Below are positions 42,767-50,760 of a DNA stretch of 64,000 bases, one piece after another (positions within the stretch are counted from its first letter, which is position 1; every line of letters starts with the position of its first letter). Source of the DNA: Ulvibacterium sp. Lineage in GTDB: Bacteria > Bacteroidota > Bacteroidia > Flavobacteriales > Flavobacteriaceae. A program made the translations under genes and the position numbers. The notes under the pieces are model-generated. The model saw only the letters and a list, made by a program, of their open reading frames with translations, searched no databases and was not told where the DNA came from. The DNA lies in assembly GCF_028285715.1 (NCBI RefSeq), contig NZ_JANQOO010000003.1:1-64000 (forward strand), written 5' to 3'.

Positions 42767-43003
42767 ATGTCAAAAGTTTGTGAAATTACGGGTAAGAGGG
42801 CAATGTTCGGAAACAACGTTTCGTTTTCCATCAATAAAACGAAAAGAAGGTTTAACGTAAACCTTTCCAAAAAGCGTTTCTATATTCCTGAGGAAGATCG
42901 TTGGGTTACATTAAAGGTTTCGGCCAAAGCATTGAAAACCATCAATAAAAAAGGGATTTCCGCTGTTTTGAAGGAAGCTAGGGCACAAGGATTTATAAAA
43001 TAA
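42767..43003 (+). CDS. rpmB: 50S ribosomal protein L28
   Basis: 78 residues, N-terminal [22 protein letters not shown]-type start typical of L28 and a basic C-terminus. First gene of a conserved Bacteroidota cluster with rpmG, DUF4295 and ftsY. Overlapping or close spacing (4 bp to rpmG). Confidence 0.96.
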
Positions 43004-43007
43004 TACA

Positions 43008-43190
43008 ATGGCAAAGAAGGGAAATAGGGTACAGGTTATCTTAGAGTGTACAGAGCATAAGAATTCGGGCGTTCCCGGTACCTCTAGGTACATTACCACA
43101 AAGAACAAGAAGAACACTCCGGAGCGCATAGAAATTAAGAAATACAATCCAATTCTTCGAAAAGTAACGGTTCATAAAGAAATTAAGTAG
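43008..43190 (+). CDS. rpmG: 50S ribosomal protein L33
   Basis: 60 residues: [45 protein letters not shown]. Lacks the CxxC pairs of the zinc form, so it is the zinc-free type. Follows rpmB by 4 bp. Confidence 0.96.
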
Positions 43191-43225
43191 TTTTCCATTT
43201 GGGAAAATAGATAATAGTACAAGTC

Positions 43226-43378
43226 ATGGCAAAGAAAACGGTAGCAACTTTACAATCCACTTCAAAAAGATTGACCAAGGCAATAAAAATGGTAAAATCG
43301 CCTAAAACGGGGGCCTATACTTTTGTAGAATCCGTAATGCCACCGGAGTTGGTGAATGAATGGATTGCCAAGAAATAA
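43226..43378 (+). CDS. DUF4295 small protein
   Basis: 50 residues, very basic: MAKKTVATLQSTSKR, LTKAIKMVKSPKTGAYTF, PPELVNEWIAKK. This family is found right after rpmG in Bacteroidota; the role is unknown but ribosome association is likely. It starts 35 bp after rpmG and is followed by a terminator. Confidence 0.93.
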   Translation: MAKKTVATLQSTSKRLTKAIKMVKSPKTGAYTFVESVMPPELVNEWIAKK

Positions 43379-43399
43379 GAAAAATCATATATAGGTTAG

Positions 43400-43431
43400 A
43401 AAAGCCGTCCTCCAAATAGGGGACGGCTTTT
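43400..43431 (+). terminator. Terminator after rpmB-rpmG-DUF4295
   Basis: AAAAGCCGTCC (43400-43410), 10-nt loop, GGACGGCTTTT (43421-43431) plus further T. It separates the ribosomal operon from ftsY; the rest of the gap to 43635 shows only the ftsY promoter. Confidence 0.9.
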
Positions 43432-43581
43432 TTTATGAACCACAGTTATGTTTCAGCATATGGGATTTGGTACAAACCTAGCGTAACTCACGATTGTTAC
43501 AAGGCTTAATCGACCTGGGCTTTTCAATATCAGCACCTACCTATTGGCGTAATTTTCCCGTCATGTACAGGGGACTTTCCC

Positions 43582-43613
43582 TTGGGTTTACGCCATTTAC
43601 TTTCATATCTTTG
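43582..43613 (+). promoter_or_regulatory. Promoter of ftsY: TTGG-N20-TATCTTTG
   Basis: A -33-like TTGG (43582-43585) and -7 box TATCTTTG (43606-43613) with a 20-bp spacer, 22 bp before the ATG. The best two-element housekeeping promoter in the window. Confidence 0.7.
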
Positions 43614-43635
43614 AAAAAAGCATTCTTTAAGACGT

Positions 43636-44592
43636 ATGAGCTTATTCAAAAACATATTTTCCGCAAAGAAAAAGGAATCTTTGGACAAGGGCCTGGAAAA
43701 GACCAAGACCAATTTTTTCTCCAAATTGAGCAAGGCAGTGGCCGGTAAATCCAGGGTAGATGATGATGTATTGGATAATCTGGAAGAGGTTTTGGTGACA
43801 TCCGATGTTGGTGTGGACACTACCTTAAAAGTCATTGAGCGTATCGAAGCCAGGGTAGCCAGGGACAAATATATGGGGACTGATGAGTTGAACACTATTC
43901 TAAGGGAGGAAATTGCCGGTCTGCTATCCGAAACCCATACCGGGGAAGAAGCAGAATACCATATCCCCGTGGATAAAAAACCTTTTGTTATCATGGTAGT
44001 AGGCGTCAATGGTGTCGGGAAGACAACGACCATAGGAAAATTGGCTCATCAATTCAAAGAACAAGGGCTCAAGGTGGTGTTGGGCGCTGCTGATACCTTT
44101 CGTGCCGCGGCCATAGATCAATTGCAAGTCTGGGCGGATCGAGTGGATGTGCCCATAATAAAGCAAAAGATGGGCAGCGATCCGGCTTCTGTCGCTTTTG
44201 ACACGCTGAGTTCGGCGGTTTCCCAAGGTGCCGATGTTGTAATTATCGATACGGCGGGTCGCCTGCACAACAAGGTGAATTTGATGAACGAACTGACCAA
44301 AGTAAAAAAGGTGATGCAAAAAGTAGTCGATGATACCCCACATGAGGTTCTATTGGTGCTGGATGGCTCTACAGGGCAAAACGCCTTTGAACAGGCCAAA
44401 CAGTTTACCAAGGCTACGGAAGTAACCGCATTGGCGGTCACCAAATTGGACGGAACTGCAAAGGGTGGGGTGGTCATAGGCATTTCGGACCAGTTTCAGA
44501 TTCCCGTTAAATATATCGGGGTCGGTGAAGGTATGGAGGATCTTCAGGTTTTCAATAAATATGAATTTGTGGACTCCTTTTTTAAGGTTTAA
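43636..44592 (+). CDS. ftsY: Signal recognition particle receptor FtsY
   Basis: 318 residues. N domain (1-105) and SRP-type GTPase G domain: GVNGVGKTTT (123-132), DTFRAAAIDQL, IDTAGR, LDGTAKGG and the end GVGEGMEDLQVF. Targets ribosome-nascent chain complexes to the membrane. No long acidic A domain, as is usual in Bacteroidota. Confidence 0.97.
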   Translation: MSLFKNIFSAKKKESLDKGLEKTKTNFFSKLSKAVAGKSRVDDDVLDNLEEVLVTSDVGVDTTLKVIERIEARVARDKYMGTDELNTILREEIAGLLSETHTGEEAEYHIPVDKKPFVIMVVGVNGVGKTTTIGKLAHQFKEQGLKVVLGAADTFRAAAIDQLQVWADRVDVPIIKQKMGSDPASVAFDTLSSAVSQGADVVIIDTAGRLHNKVNLMNELTKVKKVMQKVVDDTPHEVLLVLDGSTGQNAFEQAKQFTKATEVTALAVTKLDGTAKGGVVIGISDQFQIPVKYIGVGEGMEDLQVFNKYEFVDSFFKV

Positions 44593-44725
44593 GAAAGGGA
44601 TAAATGTTGCGCCGTGGTGCTTTTAGGTGGGGCAATGGATGCTTAAAAGACCAATTATAGAACAACGGGATAATTTTCAACGGGAATGGGTATAAAAAGG
44701 TTTTGGGTAAAACGGAAAAGGCCAT

Positions 44726-45469
44726 ATGTATAAGGCCTATATTCTGGACATATCAAAAAAGCTTTGGGCCGCCGTCACGGATCTGATTCCAATAATTGTA
44801 GTTGTTGTTTTTTTTCAAACCGCAGTTATTCAACAGCCATTCCCGGAGATTGGCGAGGTGATAATAGGCATTTTGTTCGTCATAGTGGGCCTAATGCTTT
44901 TTATCGAGGGGCTGGAAATTGGATTATTTCCCATAGGGGAGGCCATGGCCTATGCGCTGGCAAAGAAAGGAAGTCTTTTTTGGTTGTTGATTTTTTCCTT
45001 TGCCTTGGGTTTTTCAACTACTATTGCTGAACCGGCGTTGATAGCCGTTGCCAAAGAGGCCTCGGAGATATCATCCGGTGCTGGCTTGATCAAGAATGAT
45101 CAAAGCACAATGAATATCTATGCCTTTGGTCTACGCCTGGCAGTGGCTTTTTCCGTAGGCCTGGCCATTGTTATTGGTGTATTGCGTATCCTTAAGGGTT
45201 GGCCGCTATATTATCTGATTATAGGTGGATATGTATTGGTAATGTTGATGACTATTATCGCCCCTTCGGAAATCATAGGTTTGGCCTATGATGCCGGCGG
45301 GGTTACGACCTCCACCATTACAGTACCACTGGTAACGGCTCTTGGTGTTGGTTTGGCCACCGTAATTAAGGGTAGGAGCCCACTTTTGGATGGTTTTGGC
45401 CTTATTGCCTTCGCATCACTTTTGCCTATGGTCTTTGTTATGGCATACGGATTATTTTGGTTTAGTTAA
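44726..45469 (+). CDS. DUF1538 membrane protein, subunit 1
   Basis: 247 residues, about six to seven hydrophobic segments. Conserved segments: IIVVVVFFQTAVIQQPFP (near 25), GLMLFIEGLEIGLFPIGE, LGFSTTIAEPALIAVA and YDAGGVTTSTITVPLVTALG, then a DGFGLIAFASLLP end. The same segments recur in the next gene, so the two probably form one membrane complex. DUF1538 proteins often neighbour PII-like proteins; a transport function is inferred, the substrate is unknown. It is separated from ftsY by 133 bp. Confidence 0.88.
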   Translation: MYKAYILDISKKLWAAVTDLIPIIVVVVFFQTAVIQQPFPEIGEVIIGILFVIVGLMLFIEGLEIGLFPIGEAMAYALAKKGSLFWLLIFSFALGFSTTIAEPALIAVAKEASEISSGAGLIKNDQSTMNIYAFGLRLAVAFSVGLAIVIGVLRILKGWPLYYLIIGGYVLVMLMTIIAPSEIIGLAYDAGGVTTSTITVPLVTALGVGLATVIKGRSPLLDGFGLIAFASLLPMVFVMAYGLFWFS

Positions 45470-45473
45470 ATAC

Positions 45474-46268
45474 ATGCCCATGTTCGACTTTGTTGTGGAT
45501 TTTGTATGGATTTTAATATACACCATTAGGGATGTAATGCCCATTCTCCTATTGATCGTTTTCTTTCAATTGGTGGTACTAAAACAACCGATTCCCCATT
45601 TAAAGAAGGTTATCCTGGGAGGAATATATGTGGTGATCGGACTAGCCTTGTTCCTTATGGGGCTGGAAAAGGCACTTTTTCCTCTTGGAAAGATTATGGC
45701 CACACAATTGTCCGATCCCGCTTTTATAGCAGCGGGTGGAAATGCGTTGACGGATTGGAGATCGTATTACTGGATTTATATTTTTGCTGCTTTGATTGGA
45801 TTTTCTACTACCATTGCGGAACCGTCCCTTATCGCCGTTGCCATTAAGGCCGGCGAAGTTTCCGCAGGGACCATTAGCCCGTGGGGGTTAAGGATTACCG
45901 TGGCCTTGGGTGTGGCCTTCGCCTTGGCCTTGGGAACGTTTCGTATAGTGACCGGAACACCATTGTTCGTATATATTATGGCAGGGTATATGGTGGTAAT
46001 TGTACAGACTATCTTTGCACCAAAACGACTCATTGCGATAGCCTACGACTCCGGAGGGGTTACCACCTCCACCGTTACTGTTCCCCTAGTAGCAGCCCTT
46101 GGGCTTGGGTTGTCTAGCGCCGTGCCGGGCAGGAATCCCGCTGTGGACGGATTTGGCCTCATCGCCTTTGCCAGCTTGTTCCCGATCATCACCGTATTGG
46201 GCTACGCACAGGTTATGAGCTTAAAAAACAGAATATTAAAAATTAAAATGGAGAAAGATGCAGTTTAA
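45474..46268 (+). CDS. DUF1538 membrane protein, subunit 2
   Basis: 264 residues from the ATG at 45474, 4 bp after subunit 1. Paralogue of subunit 1: FFQLVVLKQPIPH, GLALFLMGLEKALFPLGK, IGFSTTIAEPSLIAVAIKAGE, YDSGGVTTSTVTVPLVAALG, DGFGLIAFASLFP. It carries an extra loop (SDPAFIAAGGNALTDWRSYY). The frame runs past the PII-like ATG (46258), overlapping it by 11 bases. Confidence 0.88.
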   Translation: MPMFDFVVDFVWILIYTIRDVMPILLLIVFFQLVVLKQPIPHLKKVILGGIYVVIGLALFLMGLEKALFPLGKIMATQLSDPAFIAAGGNALTDWRSYYWIYIFAALIGFSTTIAEPSLIAVAIKAGEVSAGTISPWGLRITVALGVAFALALGTFRIVTGTPLFVYIMAGYMVVIVQTIFAPKRLIAIAYDSGGVTTSTVTVPLVAALGLGLSSAVPGRNPAVDGFGLIAFASLFPIITVLGYAQVMSLKNRILKIKMEKDAV

Positions 46269-46605
46269 ATTGATTATGGCATTTGTTAAACCCAATATCT
46301 GTGATGATGTTGTGGATGCCATGAAGGAGGCAGGAGCCACGGGAGCTACTATTATCCCCGCTAGGGGTACCGGAATTCACGAAGCGAAATCCTTTTTTGG
46401 ACTAAGTATCGAAGACAAGACGGATATCATTGTGTTTTTGGTAGAGGAACACGTGGTGGAAAATCTTTTAAAGGTTATCCAAGAGGCCGGTAGATTTGAT
46501 AAGCCAGGAACTGGAATTGCCTTTGTCTTGCCAATAGAGCACATTGCCGGTTTGGAAAGTCAAATGAAGAAGTTTAAGGACCAGGCCAGAGACAAGTATT
46601 TTTAG
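46258..46605 (+). CDS. Divergent PII-like signalling protein
   Basis: 115 residues with the ferredoxin-like PII fold: FKLIMAFVKPNICDDVVDAMKEAGATGATII at the start, LVEEHVVENLLKVIQEAGRF in the middle. The T-loop is short (RGTGIHEAKSFFGLSIEDKTD) and lacks the uridylylated tyrosine of canonical PII, and the GKxGDGKIFV nucleotide loop is replaced by DKPGTGIAFVL. It is thus not GlnB/GlnK. Overlap with the DUF1538 gene suggests that it binds and regulates that membrane pair. Confidence 0.85.
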   Translation: MQFKLIMAFVKPNICDDVVDAMKEAGATGATIIPARGTGIHEAKSFFGLSIEDKTDIIVFLVEEHVVENLLKVIQEAGRFDKPGTGIAFVLPIEHIAGLESQMKKFKDQARDKYF

Positions 46606-46655
46606 TACATTCCGTAATTTAGGGAAACACAGATTAAGCATTAATAAGAGCAAAC

Positions 46656-47057
46656 ATGGATACAAAAAGAGGATTTCAGGCGGCAAAGGACGTTATGACC
46701 AAACGCGTAGTTTTAGTGGATGGGATGGCCACGGCTAAGGAAGCCGTGGAGTTGATGCGGAAAGAAGGGGTGGAGGCCTTGATCGTTAAGAAACGACATC
46801 CGCAGGATGCCTACGGAATTGTACTGATACACGATTTGATCAAGGGGGTTATTATTCCGGACAAGACTTCCGAAGAGGTAAATGTGTTTGAAATTATGAC
46901 CAAACCGGTCATAAGTGTTCCCGCTGACATGGAGGTACGCTACGTGGCCAGTCTATTGATGAAAGTGGGATTCCGAATGGCTCCCGTAGAGGAAAATGGG
47001 GAATATATAGGCATGGTCTCCATTTCAGACCTCATCTTGGACAATTTACTTTTCTAG
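46656..47057 (+). CDS. CBS-pair protein
   Basis: 133 residues consisting of two CBS motifs (about 10-67, DVMTKRVVLVDGMATAKEAVELM, and 73-131, EIMTKPVISVPADMEVRYVASLLM). CBS pairs bind adenine nucleotides. It lies 50 bp after the PII-like gene on the same strand and likely completes the same operon as an energy or nucleotide sensor. Confidence 0.9.
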   Translation: MDTKRGFQAAKDVMTKRVVLVDGMATAKEAVELMRKEGVEALIVKKRHPQDAYGIVLIHDLIKGVIIPDKTSEEVNVFEIMTKPVISVPADMEVRYVASLLMKVGFRMAPVEENGEYIGMVSISDLILDNLLF

Positions 47058-47086
47058 GAGGACTAGATTGAAAAACTATACTTATA

Positions 47087-47151
47087 CCCAATACCCTATA
47101 AGGGTGATTTATAGGCACAACGCTATAAGCGGCTCATAAGTTTATATTGGG
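47087..47151 (+). other. Intergenic element with nested palindromes
   Basis: CCCAAT (47087-47092) pairs with ATTGGG (47146-47151). Inside are two perfect palindromes sharing a CTATAAG core: ACCCTATAAGGGT (47093-47105) and CGCTATAAGCG (47121-47131). It could fold into a three-way junction RNA, or be protein-binding sites; no U-run follows. It lies between the CBS and methyltransferase genes. Confidence 0.4.
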
Positions 47152-47240
47152 CAATAAAACGTCCTTTTTACTATCTATGTTGGCAAATTTCAATAGGTAA
47201 AACCGTAACTCACACTCCAAAACCGTAAAAACAAAAAGTC

Positions 47241-47969
47241 ATGGCGGAAGAATATGATCAAATTACGGCATTTCATTATGCGGCTTTTCGACCACTGTTG
47301 CATTTGCCGATTTTAAAGGCATGTTTGAATGAGGGCAAGGAGTATTCCTTGGGGTTGGATGTGGGTTGCGGAACAGGGCAATCTTCCATTGCATTGACCA
47401 ATTTTTGTAAAAAAGTCCACGGAATCGAACCTGGAAAGGAGATGTTGGAAAAATCAATAGCACATCCCAAGATAGCATATAGTCACTACGACGGCCAAAA
47501 TTTCGACTTTCCGGATAACTTCTTTGATATCACTACTTTTGCCGGTTCCCTATATTATGGAAAATCACAGCATTTGTTGAACGAAGTTGTACGAATAGGT
47601 AAGAATGCTTCCTTGGTAATTATCTATGATTTTGAATTGTCATTGGATTCCTTACATGTGAAACTAAATTTGGAACCTTTGGTTGTACAGGGATCTGATT
47701 ATGATCACCTCGTAAACTTCGACGGATTGAATAAAAAGCATATAAATGTAGAAAAGGAAGTGCAGGGAAAGGTGTCAATGGAAATAGCGATATCTGATAT
47801 CTCACACCTATTGCTTTCATATAAAGACAATTACAATCGGCTACTTCAATCTTTAGGGGAGAATGATCTTTACGAGACCGTTTCACAAAAACTTCGTTCT
47901 ATACTGAAGTCAGAAAGTACATTTATAGACGCAAAGACGTATGCAACTATGTATCGAGTTACAAAGTAA
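47241..47969 (+). CDS. Class I SAM-dependent methyltransferase
   Basis: 242 residues. SAM motif I LGLDVGCGTGQSSIAL (about 36-51), HGIEPGKEMLEKS, and the later DFPDNFFDITTFAGSLYYG. Acceptor substrate unknown. It stands alone: 183 bp after the CBS gene and 242 bp before the next, the latter gap holding no supported feature. Confidence 0.88.
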   Translation: MAEEYDQITAFHYAAFRPLLHLPILKACLNEGKEYSLGLDVGCGTGQSSIALTNFCKKVHGIEPGKEMLEKSIAHPKIAYSHYDGQNFDFPDNFFDITTFAGSLYYGKSQHLLNEVVRIGKNASLVIIYDFELSLDSLHVKLNLEPLVVQGSDYDHLVNFDGLNKKHINVEKEVQGKVSMEIAISDISHLLLSYKDNYNRLLQSLGENDLYETVSQKLRSILKSESTFIDAKTYATMYRVTK

Positions 47970-48211
47970 TACCCTCAAATGTTTAGTTTGAAATAGAAAT
48001 AGGGCACTGCCACCGGCACCACAAAGAGGATACATACTTCATTGTTCTGCACTTGAGCAGTCTAAGGCCCTTACGTAAAGAATTGAAAAAAGTATCGGAA
48101 AAACTCTAAAAGGAAAAGGTTTATATGATAAGTAAATTAGTAAAATATGATTTATTACGGATTTTAACGCAACGATTTATACGGTTTTTCAACTAATGAA
48201 AAACGATTGAT

Positions 48212-48649
48212 ATGGAAAACAGCCCCAACTTCAAGATTGCTTTGTTCTTATTAATTACGCTAACAAGTTTTTGTACGGCATGCAATGACGGATGTAACGA
48301 TTGTCTTGATTTGACTTCCAAGAATATCCTTCTGGTAAACGCCTCCGGAACAAATCTCTTGTTTGGTGATGACGCTATCTATAATCCTGAGAATGTTTCA
48401 ATAAGAAACGGTAATGAAGAATTATCACCGGTTTTAATCGATGAAGGCACGGGCACATTACAGTTTTTTTTGGCAGAAGATGTTATGGAATACCAAGTGG
48501 TTTTATCGGAGAGTGAGATAGAAACCTTAAGTTTTGAATTGGCTGAACGGAATAGTGAACGATGTTGTGGTACGCAGACCTTCACCACCGGTACTCGTCT
48601 CAATGGCAATGAAATTGAAAATACGGATATTATTACCATAATCAAGTAG
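48212..48649 (+). CDS. Putative small lipoprotein, unknown function
   Basis: 145 residues with a signal segment and lipobox-like SFCTACNDGCNDC. The mature part is beta-rich with a further cysteine pair ERCCGT. I recognise no family. The gap 48650-48861 shows nothing more. Confidence 0.7.
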   Translation: MENSPNFKIALFLLITLTSFCTACNDGCNDCLDLTSKNILLVNASGTNLLFGDDAIYNPENVSIRNGNEELSPVLIDEGTGTLQFFLAEDVMEYQVVLSESEIETLSFELAERNSERCCGTQTFTTGTRLNGNEIENTDIITIIK

Positions 48650-48861
48650 TCCATCGTTTTGGTAATACCCATTAAACCTGGGTGCCTCGGATATAGGTGA
48701 AAGTGATGCAAGGGTATTATTGCTATCTTGTGACAAAGTTCATTTTGTTTGGACCTCGGGGGCCTTGCCATCTTGATGTAGTGATTAATTAAGTGGCTTT
48801 TCTTTGATGCCTTTCTGTAATCCTTGATAATAGATGACCTGCGCCAACAAAAATCAATGCT

Positions 48862-50760
48862 ATGGAAAAAATGAGGTATTACACATTTCTGCACATTTCG
48901 GTATCCCTGTTTTTGTTAGGGATATTGTTGGCCTGTCAATTGGAAAATGAGGAACTTCCACCTCCAAATATCCTATGGATTACCTCCGAGGATAATTCTA
49001 AGCATTATCTTAAGCTTTTCGATGAAAATGGGGTTTCCACTCCTAATATTGAATCATTGGCCGAGGAGGGTCTTGTTTTTACAAGGGCATTTTCCAATGC
49101 CCCGGTATGTAGTGTGGCAAGATCTACTTTGATTTCTGGATGTTATGCCCCCAGGATCGGAACACAGTTCCATAGAAAATATATCCCGGTGCCCATGCCG
49201 GATTCGCTACATATGTTTCCTTGGTATTTGCGGGAGGCAGGTTATTTTGCAAGCAACAATCAAAAAAAGGATTACAATATCATCGAGGGTGAAGGAGTAT
49301 GGGACGAATCCTCTGGAGAGGCCACTTGGCAGAATAGGGAAGGGGACCAACCCTTTTTTCACGTATTTAATATTGGTATTTCCCATGAATCCGGTTTACA
49401 TTTTTCATCCCAAGAAATGGATTCCATTGTAACCAAGACGAGCGAAAATTCATTTGAAATTCAACCCAACCATCCACAGACCCGAACCTTTGCCTATACG
49501 AATGCCTATTATCGGGATAAAGTGCGCGCTATGGACAACAAGGTGGGCGAAGTATTGGACGAACTGAGGAAGGATGGGTTAATGGACAACACTTTCATCT
49601 TTTATTTTGGAGATCATGGTGGGGTTTTACCGGGCAGTAAGGGCTATTTATATGAAACCGGCTTACATGTACCACTGGTTGTCCATATTCCCAAAAAATA
49701 CAGACACCTGGTAAATATGCCAATGAAAACTACGATTCAGGATTTTGTCAGCTTTGTGGATTTTGGTCCCACGGTATTAAATCTAGCCGGAATTCCCACT
49801 CCCGGGAATATGGATGGAAAGCCATTTTTGGGTCCAAAGATTACTAAGAACGATAGAAACATGCGGAACGTGACCTTTAGCTATGCCGATCGTTTTGACG
49901 AAAAATACGATATGGTCCGGGCGGTCCGAAAAGGAAAGTTCAAGTACATCCGAAGTTATACGCCCTTTAACCCGGATGGATTGGTAAACAACTATCGTTA
50001 TAAACAATTGGCCTATCAGGAATGGCGGGCCATGTATGCCGTAGGTGAGCTTAACAAAATGCAATCCGCCTTTTTTGAACCACGGCAACCTGAATTGTTA
50101 TTTGATGTGGAAGCCGATCCTTTTGAGACGGTCAACCTAGCAAACCAAAAAGGTTACGAGGATGTGCAAGATGATATGCGGCAAACATTGGACGCTTGGG
50201 TAAAGGGAATGCCGGATTTATCCTTTTTTCCTGAGCACCACTTGATTGAAGATGCTTTTACCGACCCAGTGATTTTTGGAAAAGAAGAACAGCAAAGGAT
50301 TGAACGTTATATGGCCATTACAGATCTTTCTCTTTCGCCTTTTGTGGAAGTAAAAGACCAACTGATAGCGGGTCTTCAATCAGCGGATCCATGGGAAAGG
50401 TATTGGACTATTATCGTATCTAGTAGTTTTCGGGAAAAAGCAAAGTTATTGGCAAGTCAAATCGGTAAATTGGCGCAAAGCGATCCAGAATTGATCAACA
50501 GGGTGCGGGCAGCGGAATTTCTGGGAATTGTCCGGGCATCCAGTCCTGTGGAAATAATGACAAAGGCACTTTACGAAAGTGAAAAACCCAGCGAAGCACT
50601 ACTTATATTAAATTCCATCGTTCTGATGCAATCTTCAAATGCGGCCTATACATTTAATTTGGATCCGGATAAAATAGCTATGGTGGTAGTAAAGGATAGC
50701 CAAGTGAAAAGGCGTTTGGATTATTTGGTCCCACAGGGACGCCACGACGTGCCTAAGTGA
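48862..50760 (+). CDS. Lipoprotein sulfatase with atypical CSVAR active site
   Basis: 632 residues, lipobox LLACQ (C25). Sulfatase fold: PPPNILWITSEDNS (metal ligands D44, N45), SNAPVCSVARSTLISG (C83 would become formylglycine), later FYFGDHGGVLPGSKG and GDH-type metal site. The usual C-x-P-S-R is C-S-V-A-R here. The C-terminal about 130 residues look like HEAT-type helices (SADPWERYWTII). Removes sulfate from algal or host glycans outside the cell. No maturation enzyme is encoded in this window. Confidence 0.88.
   Translation: MEKMRYYTFLHISVSLFLLGILLACQLENEELPPPNILWITSEDNSKHYLKLFDENGVSTPNIESLAEEGLVFTRAFSNAPVCSVARSTLISGCYAPRIGTQFHRKYIPVPMPDSLHMFPWYLREAGYFASNNQKKDYNIIEGEGVWDESSGEATWQNREGDQPFFHVFNIGISHESGLHFSSQEMDSIVTKTSENSFEIQPNHPQTRTFAYTNAYYRDKVRAMDNKVGEVLDELRKDGLMDNTFIFYFGDHGGVLPGSKGYLYETGLHVPLVVHIPKKYRHLVNMPMKTTIQDFVSFVDFGPTVLNLAGIPTPGNMDGKPFLGPKITKNDRNMRNVTFSYADRFDEKYDMVRAVRKGKFKYIRSYTPFNPDGLVNNYRYKQLAYQEWRAMYAVGELNKMQSAFFEPRQPELLFDVEADPFETVNLANQKGYEDVQDDMRQTLDAWVKGMPDLSFFPEHHLIEDAFTDPVIFGKEEQQRIERYMAITDLSLSPFVEVKDQLIAGLQSADPWERYWTIIVSSSFREKAKLLASQIGKLAQSDPELINRVRAAEFLGIVRASSPVEIMTKALYESEKPSEALLILNSIVLMQSSNAAYTFNLDPDKIAMVVVKDSQVKRRLDYLVPQGRHDVPK

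Follow-up and report, generated by a model that had tools for sequence, protein, structure and literature searches.

Four genes on the + strand of the Ulvibacterium sp. genome, within a 64,000-nucleotide (nt) stretch of contig NZ_JANQOO010000003.1 (assembly GCF_028285715.1; this whole stretch is called the window), form a run at 44726-47057 that encodes two DUF1538 membrane proteins related to UmpA and UmpB, a divergent PII-like protein and a protein with a pair of CBS domains. DUF1538 clusters with PII far beyond chance, across many genomes besides this one. We propose that the run specifies a monovalent-cation/proton antiporter of the UmpAB type together with dedicated cytoplasmic PII and CBS regulators, the PII-like protein gating the carrier in the way SbtB gates SbtA and the nucleotide state being sensed by PII, CBS or both, and we consider this account fairly probable.

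Association of DUF1538 with PII-like genes

Does DUF1538 occur without a PII-like neighbor? The sequence-only reading of the window had named such a solitary DUF1538 in other genomes as the case that would speak against it. Six whole-genome samples comprising 1,356 genomes, each including a centre genome already known to carry the gene, were searched for DUF1538. The gene was detected in 7/148 genomes of the Bacteroidota sample, 90/276 Gammaproteobacteria (the class of a Vibrio genome), 7/148 genomes in the phylum sample of a Desulfopila genome, 27/289 Alphaproteobacteria (the class of a Nisaea genome), and 23/251 and 12/244 genomes in the phylum samples of a Chloroflexota and a Scalindua genome, respectively. 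Four genomes were set aside before counting, leaving 162 of the 1,356 with a genuine DUF1538. Three of these are Alphaproteobacteria with partial or very weak matches (G795, G820 and G864); the first two exceed the Pfam cut-off as fragments and show no PII of the dedicated subfamily among the matches listed. In the fourth, G1341, the match falls below the cut-off and the locus (L269) contains no DUF1538 open reading frame (ORF).

The PII-like gene directly adjoins DUF1538 in 158 of the 162 genomes (7, 88, 7, 24, 21 and 11, in the order of samples given above), and the remaining four (G185, G330, G153, G1043) are cut off by a contig end, either inside the gene or no more than 173 nt away. The solitary case was thus not encountered: among the loci of the six samples there is no complete DUF1538 pair with room beside it and yet without PII. 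This genome-level tally was made by hand from the tables. It counts G239 as PII-bearing: the umpA contig there (L152) has no PII, and umpB-PII-CBS occupies a second contig (L153). For G625 and G584, the pieces flanking a contig break were considered together. A further scan, of a biased set of named genomes ranked by similarity to the window, returned 80 loci, 76 with PII and four that stop at a contig end; the full cassette is present in named genomes that include species of Vibrio, Shewanella and Photobacterium. DUF1538 with PII also occurs on plasmids, in three clostridial records and one from Methylocystis (four of seven matched records were examined), and the PLSDB table places DUF1538 and P-II genes side by side in three of the four.

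Is the PII-like protein confined to genomes with DUF1538? Among the 289 Alphaproteobacteria, a profile of the PII subfamily scored at least 44 bits in each of the 24 DUF1538-bearing genomes and in no other, the best score elsewhere being 39.2 bits; up to 16 candidates were scored per genome, with a listing threshold of E 1e-6. Because proteins linked to DUF1538 went into the profile, it favors them, and this exclusivity is supportive, not independent.

One genome of the Chloroflexota-centred sample joins the two components covalently. A single uninterrupted ORF of 741 amino acids (aa) (L250, 448-2673; also L283, G991:C94) encodes two DUF1538 domains (70-305 and 341-568), a linker and a PII domain (aligned over 631-704, with an envelope reaching 732). 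In pairwise comparison, the tail shares 47% identity over 111 aa with the product of the neighboring PII gene (E 2e-24) and 28% over 103 aa with the PII-like protein of the window (E 1.6e-10); Pfam reports only DUF1538 in this ORF, with no P-II match up to E 1, and the fusion is known from one draft contig of 7,241 nt. No further PII-DUF1538 fusion is present among L001-L226. Could the genes share a transcript and nothing more, the PII-like product never contacting the membrane pair? Operon layout alone would be compatible with this, yet the arrangement is conserved in all six samples, is near-exclusive in one class and has been fused into one gene, and we regard simple co-transcription as highly improbable. 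Another alternative is that the antiporter serves as a membrane receptor that sequesters the PII-like protein, whose real targets would lie elsewhere in the cell. AmtB sequesters GlnK in this manner, which offers a precedent; no other gene recurs at the loci among the best 14 neighbor clusters, however, and no orphan copies of the dedicated PII exist in the Alphaproteobacteria sample, so that we think sequestration very unlikely.

The membrane pair and its relation to UmpAB

Both membrane proteins of the window belong to DUF1538 (PF07556), with scores of 231 and 225.6 bits against a Pfam gathering cut-off of 22.6 bits (the corresponding cut-offs are 25 bits for P-II and 24 bits for CBS). They are 49% identical to each other, and each contains both motifs that the sequence-only reading had pointed out, GFSTTIAEP and YDxGGVTTSTxTVPLV. 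That reading had taken the two proteins for halves of one transporter, a view supported by the adjacency, only 4 bp apart, of two homologous membrane proteins. It had also put the system forward as a candidate undescribed one, and here it must be corrected, as the transporter half has been published: the DUF1538 pair UmpAB of Halomonas zhaodongensis exchanges Na+(Li+,K+) for H+ as a heterodimer and in a pH-dependent manner, umpA and umpB being sufficient for this activity in E. coli KNabc, and antiport activity has been demonstrated for the Halomonas pair only (PMC5484666). The terms PII, P-II, nitrogen regulatory and CBS do not occur in the main text of that paper, which in this respect differs from the present locus in describing no PII or CBS gene.

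Is the window pair UmpAB itself? Like UmpAB, it consists of paired, adjacent DUF1538 genes, and its proteins match the UmpA and UmpB models over their full length. They differ in falling below the NCBIfam equivalog cut-offs, with 354 of 490 bits for UmpA and 308 of 500 bits for UmpB. The UmpA cut-off was reached by none of the 276 Gammaproteobacteria, 90 of which carry DUF1538, and is therefore very narrow. As a consequence for annotation, the NCBIfam model NF041627 (UmpA, cut-off 490 bits) will withhold the name UmpA from most relatives. The Gammaproteobacteria nearest to the model are G427 (422.7 bits; L225) and G232 (408 bits; L192), and PII and CBS adjoin umpAB in both. On sequence, the window pair is related to UmpAB, and we do not file it as proven UmpAB. 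It might carry a different substrate from UmpAB, being specific for another cation or no antiporter at all, while still being controlled by PII. The missed cut-offs point in this direction, as does the fact that a single family member has been assayed in the text available (PMC5484666); the full-length matches and the narrowness of an UmpA cut-off missed by all 276 Gammaproteobacteria point the other way, and we give a different substrate only a small chance.

Which residues might carry the ions? In the predicted structure of a fused homolog (L157, 2953-4461, 503 aa; predicted local distance difference test score, pLDDT, 91.7; predicted template modelling score 0.90; 72 rows), the invariant residues E356-P357 and D432 of the C-terminal half lie in, or just before, helix breaks at 354-357 and 436-442, and the N-terminal half shows helix breaks at the matching places 94-97 and 176-182. 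The Glu of TxAEP and the Asp of DxGGVTT are conserved in 150/150 rows of UmpA and in 150/150 rows of UmpB from class A, the gene order of the window (here and below, class-A counts refer to 150 rows, window included). One such Glu and Asp per half, placed at helix breaks, are likely ion or proton sites. Against the PDB, Foldseek returned nothing for the L157 model with an E of 0.001 or lower (top structure VcINDY, E 0.024, template modelling (TM) score 0.2), and a DUF1538 profile had no PDB hit up to E 10. The model thus hints at a transporter fold that has not yet been solved, although the failure of one program is no proof.

The PII-like and CBS proteins as putative regulators

The third protein of the run is a member of the PII superfamily (P-II, 50.2 bits against 25), and its AlphaFold2 model (pLDDT 85.2) retrieves GlnK and GlnB structures with Foldseek (best E 5e-9, TM about 0.6-0.7). 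Residues 41-50, which include the hydrophobic T-loop stretch K44-L49, have a pLDDT of 58, as befits a mobile loop. Canonical GlnB and GlnK proteins feature a T-loop tyrosine, a GDGK B-loop and a C-loop of the RTGE type. The window protein has none of these: its T-loop is short and lacks the tyrosine region, and it reads GTGIAF and GLESQ where GlnK of the same genome, used as a control, reads GDGKIF and RIRT. The two are identical at 20 of 108 aligned residues, and the genome's own GlnK is encoded elsewhere, next to an ammonium transporter. GlnB/GlnK identity was rejected on these grounds, in agreement with the sequence-only reading, which had described a divergent PII-like protein. Nor did a sequence search against solved members relate it to SbtB or PstA: SbtB gave E of about 0.5 and PstA was not listed up to E 1. 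Cyclic di-AMP was rejected as a general ligand; many of the gammaproteobacterial hosts are not known to make it.

What has been kept, and what lost? In class A, the glycines G26, G29 and G86 are invariant (150/150) and G37 and G39 nearly so (149/150). The T-loop follows the consensus K[TS]F[FL]GL (K 128, T 139, F 147, F 104 or L 43, G 149 and L 144 of 150), with KSFFGL in the window. The canonical nucleotide-site Lys and Arg are gone. The protein is probably a trimer; elsewhere, chains with three PII domains (L014, L125, L126) would be compatible with a homotrimeric state.

The fourth protein contains two CBS stretches (70.2 bits against 24). CBS-pair nucleotide sensors share a ribose-binding T/S-x-x-D motif, to which GMVSISD in CBS2 conforms; GIVLIHD in CBS1 is atypical in lacking T/S, and its Asp is retained in 147/150 class-A rows. 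The best solved relative is CBS-CP12 (5nmu, E 5.5e-21), from which the window protein differs in having no CP12 tail and in being encoded with an antiporter. Does CBS belong to the system, as the sequence-only reading had proposed? Its place after the PII gene is common, in 70/80 named loci, 79/97 gammaproteobacterial, 12/23 alphaproteobacterial and 2/6 Desulfopila-phylum loci, some losses being due to contig ends; it is not universal. Its absence goes mostly, not only, with extra PII domains, and there are single-PII loci with ample room and yet no CBS (for example L020, L042, L050, L053, L062). The CBS gene is accessory.

How might these proteins act together? UmpA and UmpB would form two homologous halves of one carrier, and the PII-like protein would dock on its cytoplasmic face. 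The short hydrophobic T-loop would insert into the carrier and thereby shut or tune the exchange, by analogy with GlnK on AmtB and SbtB on SbtA. The PII-like protein would respond not to the canonical ATP/2-oxoglutarate but to another signal, for which a differently bound adenine nucleotide is the likeliest candidate, and the CBS pair could provide a second nucleotide input, such that exchange would follow the energy state of the cell. We infer binding, T-loop insertion, inhibition, the direction of control, the ligands and the sharing of substrates between the window pair and UmpAB. Plugging by the T-loop is proposed because its tip is hydrophobic and the SbtB T-loop runs along a hydrophobic cleft of SbtA (PMC8352866).

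Several observations weigh against this proposal. No PII-antiporter pair emerged clearly from coevolution analysis of 150 loci (effective number 108), in which the sole inter-protein coupling to stand out, a weak one between PII F47 and CBS D12, may be clade signal. Loss of the canonical-site Lys and Arg may have left the PII-like protein unable to bind any nucleotide. The window pair misses the equivalog cut-offs given above. The ribose-motif Asp of CBS2 is retained in only 101/150 class-A rows, CBS is missing from 18/97 gammaproteobacterial and 11/23 alphaproteobacterial loci, some of them cut, and with CBS missing from so many loci the second input cannot be essential.

Part of this evidence would suit a PII-like protein that has lost ligand binding and serves as a structural or assembly subunit, stabilizing the complex while sensing is left to CBS or pH. 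Besides the missing Lys and Arg, PII is more constant across loci than CBS, and one PII-DUF1538 fusion exists. Against it stand the glycines of the subunit cleft and B-loop, kept in at least 146/150 rows, and the activity of UmpAB in E. coli in the absence of PII (PMC5484666); we judge a purely structural role unlikely and continue to favor a gating PII-like protein. If gating it is, do the partners enable transport or modulate it? The E. coli host of the UmpAB assays brings a GlnB and a GlnK of its own. UmpAB works in E. coli without its partners, and PII and CBS are for this reason more likely modulators than enablers (PMC5484666).

Which known systems come closest? AmtB-GlnK resembles the present locus in that a PII-family gene lies beside its transporter, and the fold search with the window PII-like protein returns GlnK structures; it differs in that AmtB is a channel, not an antiporter, in that GlnK retains GDGK, the RT residues and the T-loop tyrosine, and in that the genome of the window has its own GlnK-Amt pair elsewhere. 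We know of no CBS partner of SbtA-SbtB, a bicarbonate transporter with its PII-like inhibitor. Like the present run, SbtA-SbtB unites a transporter and a PII-like gene in one operon and has a hydrophobic T-loop (PMC8352866); the transporter is a different one, and SbtB compares with the window PII-like protein by sequence at E of about 0.5 only. The best PDB match of the PII-subfamily profile is chain 9p1x_H (40 bits), which also has a short T-loop; the match is weak and the chain retains a GDG-type B-loop. We take this chain to be NifI-like; its record says only P-II family nitrogen regulatory protein.

Layout, ancestry and meaning

The sequence-only reading had described four same-strand genes with a 4-bp gap, an 11-base overlap and a 50-bp gap, which is borne out to the base (umpA-like to umpB-like, umpB-like with PII-like at 46258-46268, and PII-like to CBS, respectively). 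Taken mechanically, the umpB-like ORF could also start at 45390; the start in Table 1 agrees with homologs.

Table 1. Positions of the four genes and of conserved sites within the window.
Feature	Position	Strand	Evidence
umpA-like gene, DUF1538, 247 aa	44726..45469	+	PF07556 231 bits; NCBIfam UmpA 354 bits, cut-off 490
umpB-like gene, DUF1538, 264 aa	45474..46268	+	PF07556 225.6 bits; NCBIfam UmpB 308 bits, cut-off 500
PII-like gene, dedicated subfamily, 115 aa	46258..46605	+	P-II 50.2 bits; AlphaFold2 pLDDT 85.2; Foldseek GlnK/GlnB
CBS-pair gene, 133 aa	46656..47057	+	70.2 bits over two CBS stretches; CBS-CP12 (5nmu) as best solved relative
UmpA TxAEP motif, A101-E102-P103, at helix break in homolog model	45026..45034	+	E102 in 150/150 class-A rows; homologous break in L157 model
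UmpA D189 of DxGGVTT motif	45290..45292	+	150/150 rows
UmpB E116 of TxAEP motif	45819..45821	+	150/150 rows
UmpB D192 of DxGGVTT motif	46047..46049	+	150/150 rows
Hydrophobic T-loop of PII-like protein, K44-L49 (KSFFGL)	46387..46404	+	Consensus K[TS]F[FL]GL, 150 rows
Altered nucleotide (B-) loop, G84-A88 (GTGIA)	46507..46521	+	G86 150/150, G84 146/150, I87 139/150

The operon is flanked on its 5' side by an ftsY-like gene for an SRP54-type GTPase (43636-44592) and on its 3' side by a methyltransferase gene (47241-47969). Further 3' lies a gene, unrelated to the operon, for a sulfatase of 632 aa (PF00884, SGSH_C; 48862-50760, +). No Rfam match was found within 43000-48900, and sigma-70 promoters and terminators were rejected, 7 and 2 being found against 5.5 and 3.5 in shuffled sequence. 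A fifth conserved operon gene was likewise rejected: the commonest other neighbor family, among the best 14 clusters, occurs in 20/210 loci.

Gene starts for the comparison of loci were picked mechanically. In class A, with the order umpA, umpB, PII, CBS, the median gaps are -1 and 9 nt (n=166 loci), and that from PII to CBS is -4 nt (n=152 loci). In the largest spacing outlier, L196, a DDE transposase gene on the opposite strand splits umpB from PII by about 1.4 kb. A variant, A', has fused umpAB followed by PII and CBS (L156-L160, L187, L208; PII and CBS come first in L130). In class B, umpAB is either fused or adjacent and is accompanied by two PII domains, encoded by one gene or by two, with no CBS seen; this class is found in Bacteroidota f19 and f21, in Clostridia and in several genomes of the Scalindua phylum. 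Class C has fused umpAB with a long linker, next to either a pair of PII genes or a single PII chain of about 370-390 aa. Among these long chains, those of L014, L125 and L126 show three PII domains, and in those of L132, L133, L136 and L141 two were detected; such chains are possibly covalent PII trimers. The assignment of these three-domain chains, like that of the PII domain of the G991 fusion, rests on the subfamily profile, Pfam scoring 19-20 bits, below its cut-off, for L125 and L132. At L140 and L155, an additional DUF1538 copy is broken into pieces and looks decayed, yet a PII-like gene still follows it in both cases.

Where did the operon of the window come from? A midpoint-rooted tree built from 71 rows of concatenated UmpA, UmpB and PII sequence places the operon of the window with five Bacteroidota (support 99/99). 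This group is nested (97/89) in a set whose remaining members are Thermodesulfobacteriota plus a single unclassified proteobacterial bin. DUF1538 is absent from the 14 other genomes of the same family listed in the Bacteroidota sample. The tree and this distribution suggest that the operon was likely transferred between phyla.

In the open-access literature searched, mostly as listings and passages, we found no paper that links DUF1538 or UmpAB to PII or CBS; two papers on cable bacteria mention UmpAB, with no PII or P-II in the text available (PMC12093952, PMC10030654). PII-gated transporters and UmpAB antiport are known, and the present results suggest that what is new is an antiporter coupled to PII. 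More broadly, DUF1538 antiporters may be an obligately PII-controlled family with a fold of its own, in which a dedicated PII, with or without CBS, acts as a nucleotide-reading plug that ties Na+/K+-proton exchange to the energy state of the cell in many bacterial phyla; this we offer tentatively, as quite possible, and would not assert it. We know of no earlier PII-gated antiporter. Were the proposal true and UmpAB a heterodimer, it would be an exception to a published remark that PII control appears to be confined to trimeric transporters. About a third of the genomes in the Gammaproteobacteria sample (90/276) carry DUF1538, and yet, in the literature that could be searched, a DUF1538 antiporter has been assayed once and its PII partner goes unmentioned. 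The idea is directly testable, since assays by complementation and in vesicles are available for a DUF1538 pair. If PII does gate cation/proton exchange, its reach would extend from nutrient uptake to salt and pH homeostasis, and there would be a hypothesis for many proteins now labelled only 'P-II family nitrogen regulator', which are probably no nitrogen regulators.

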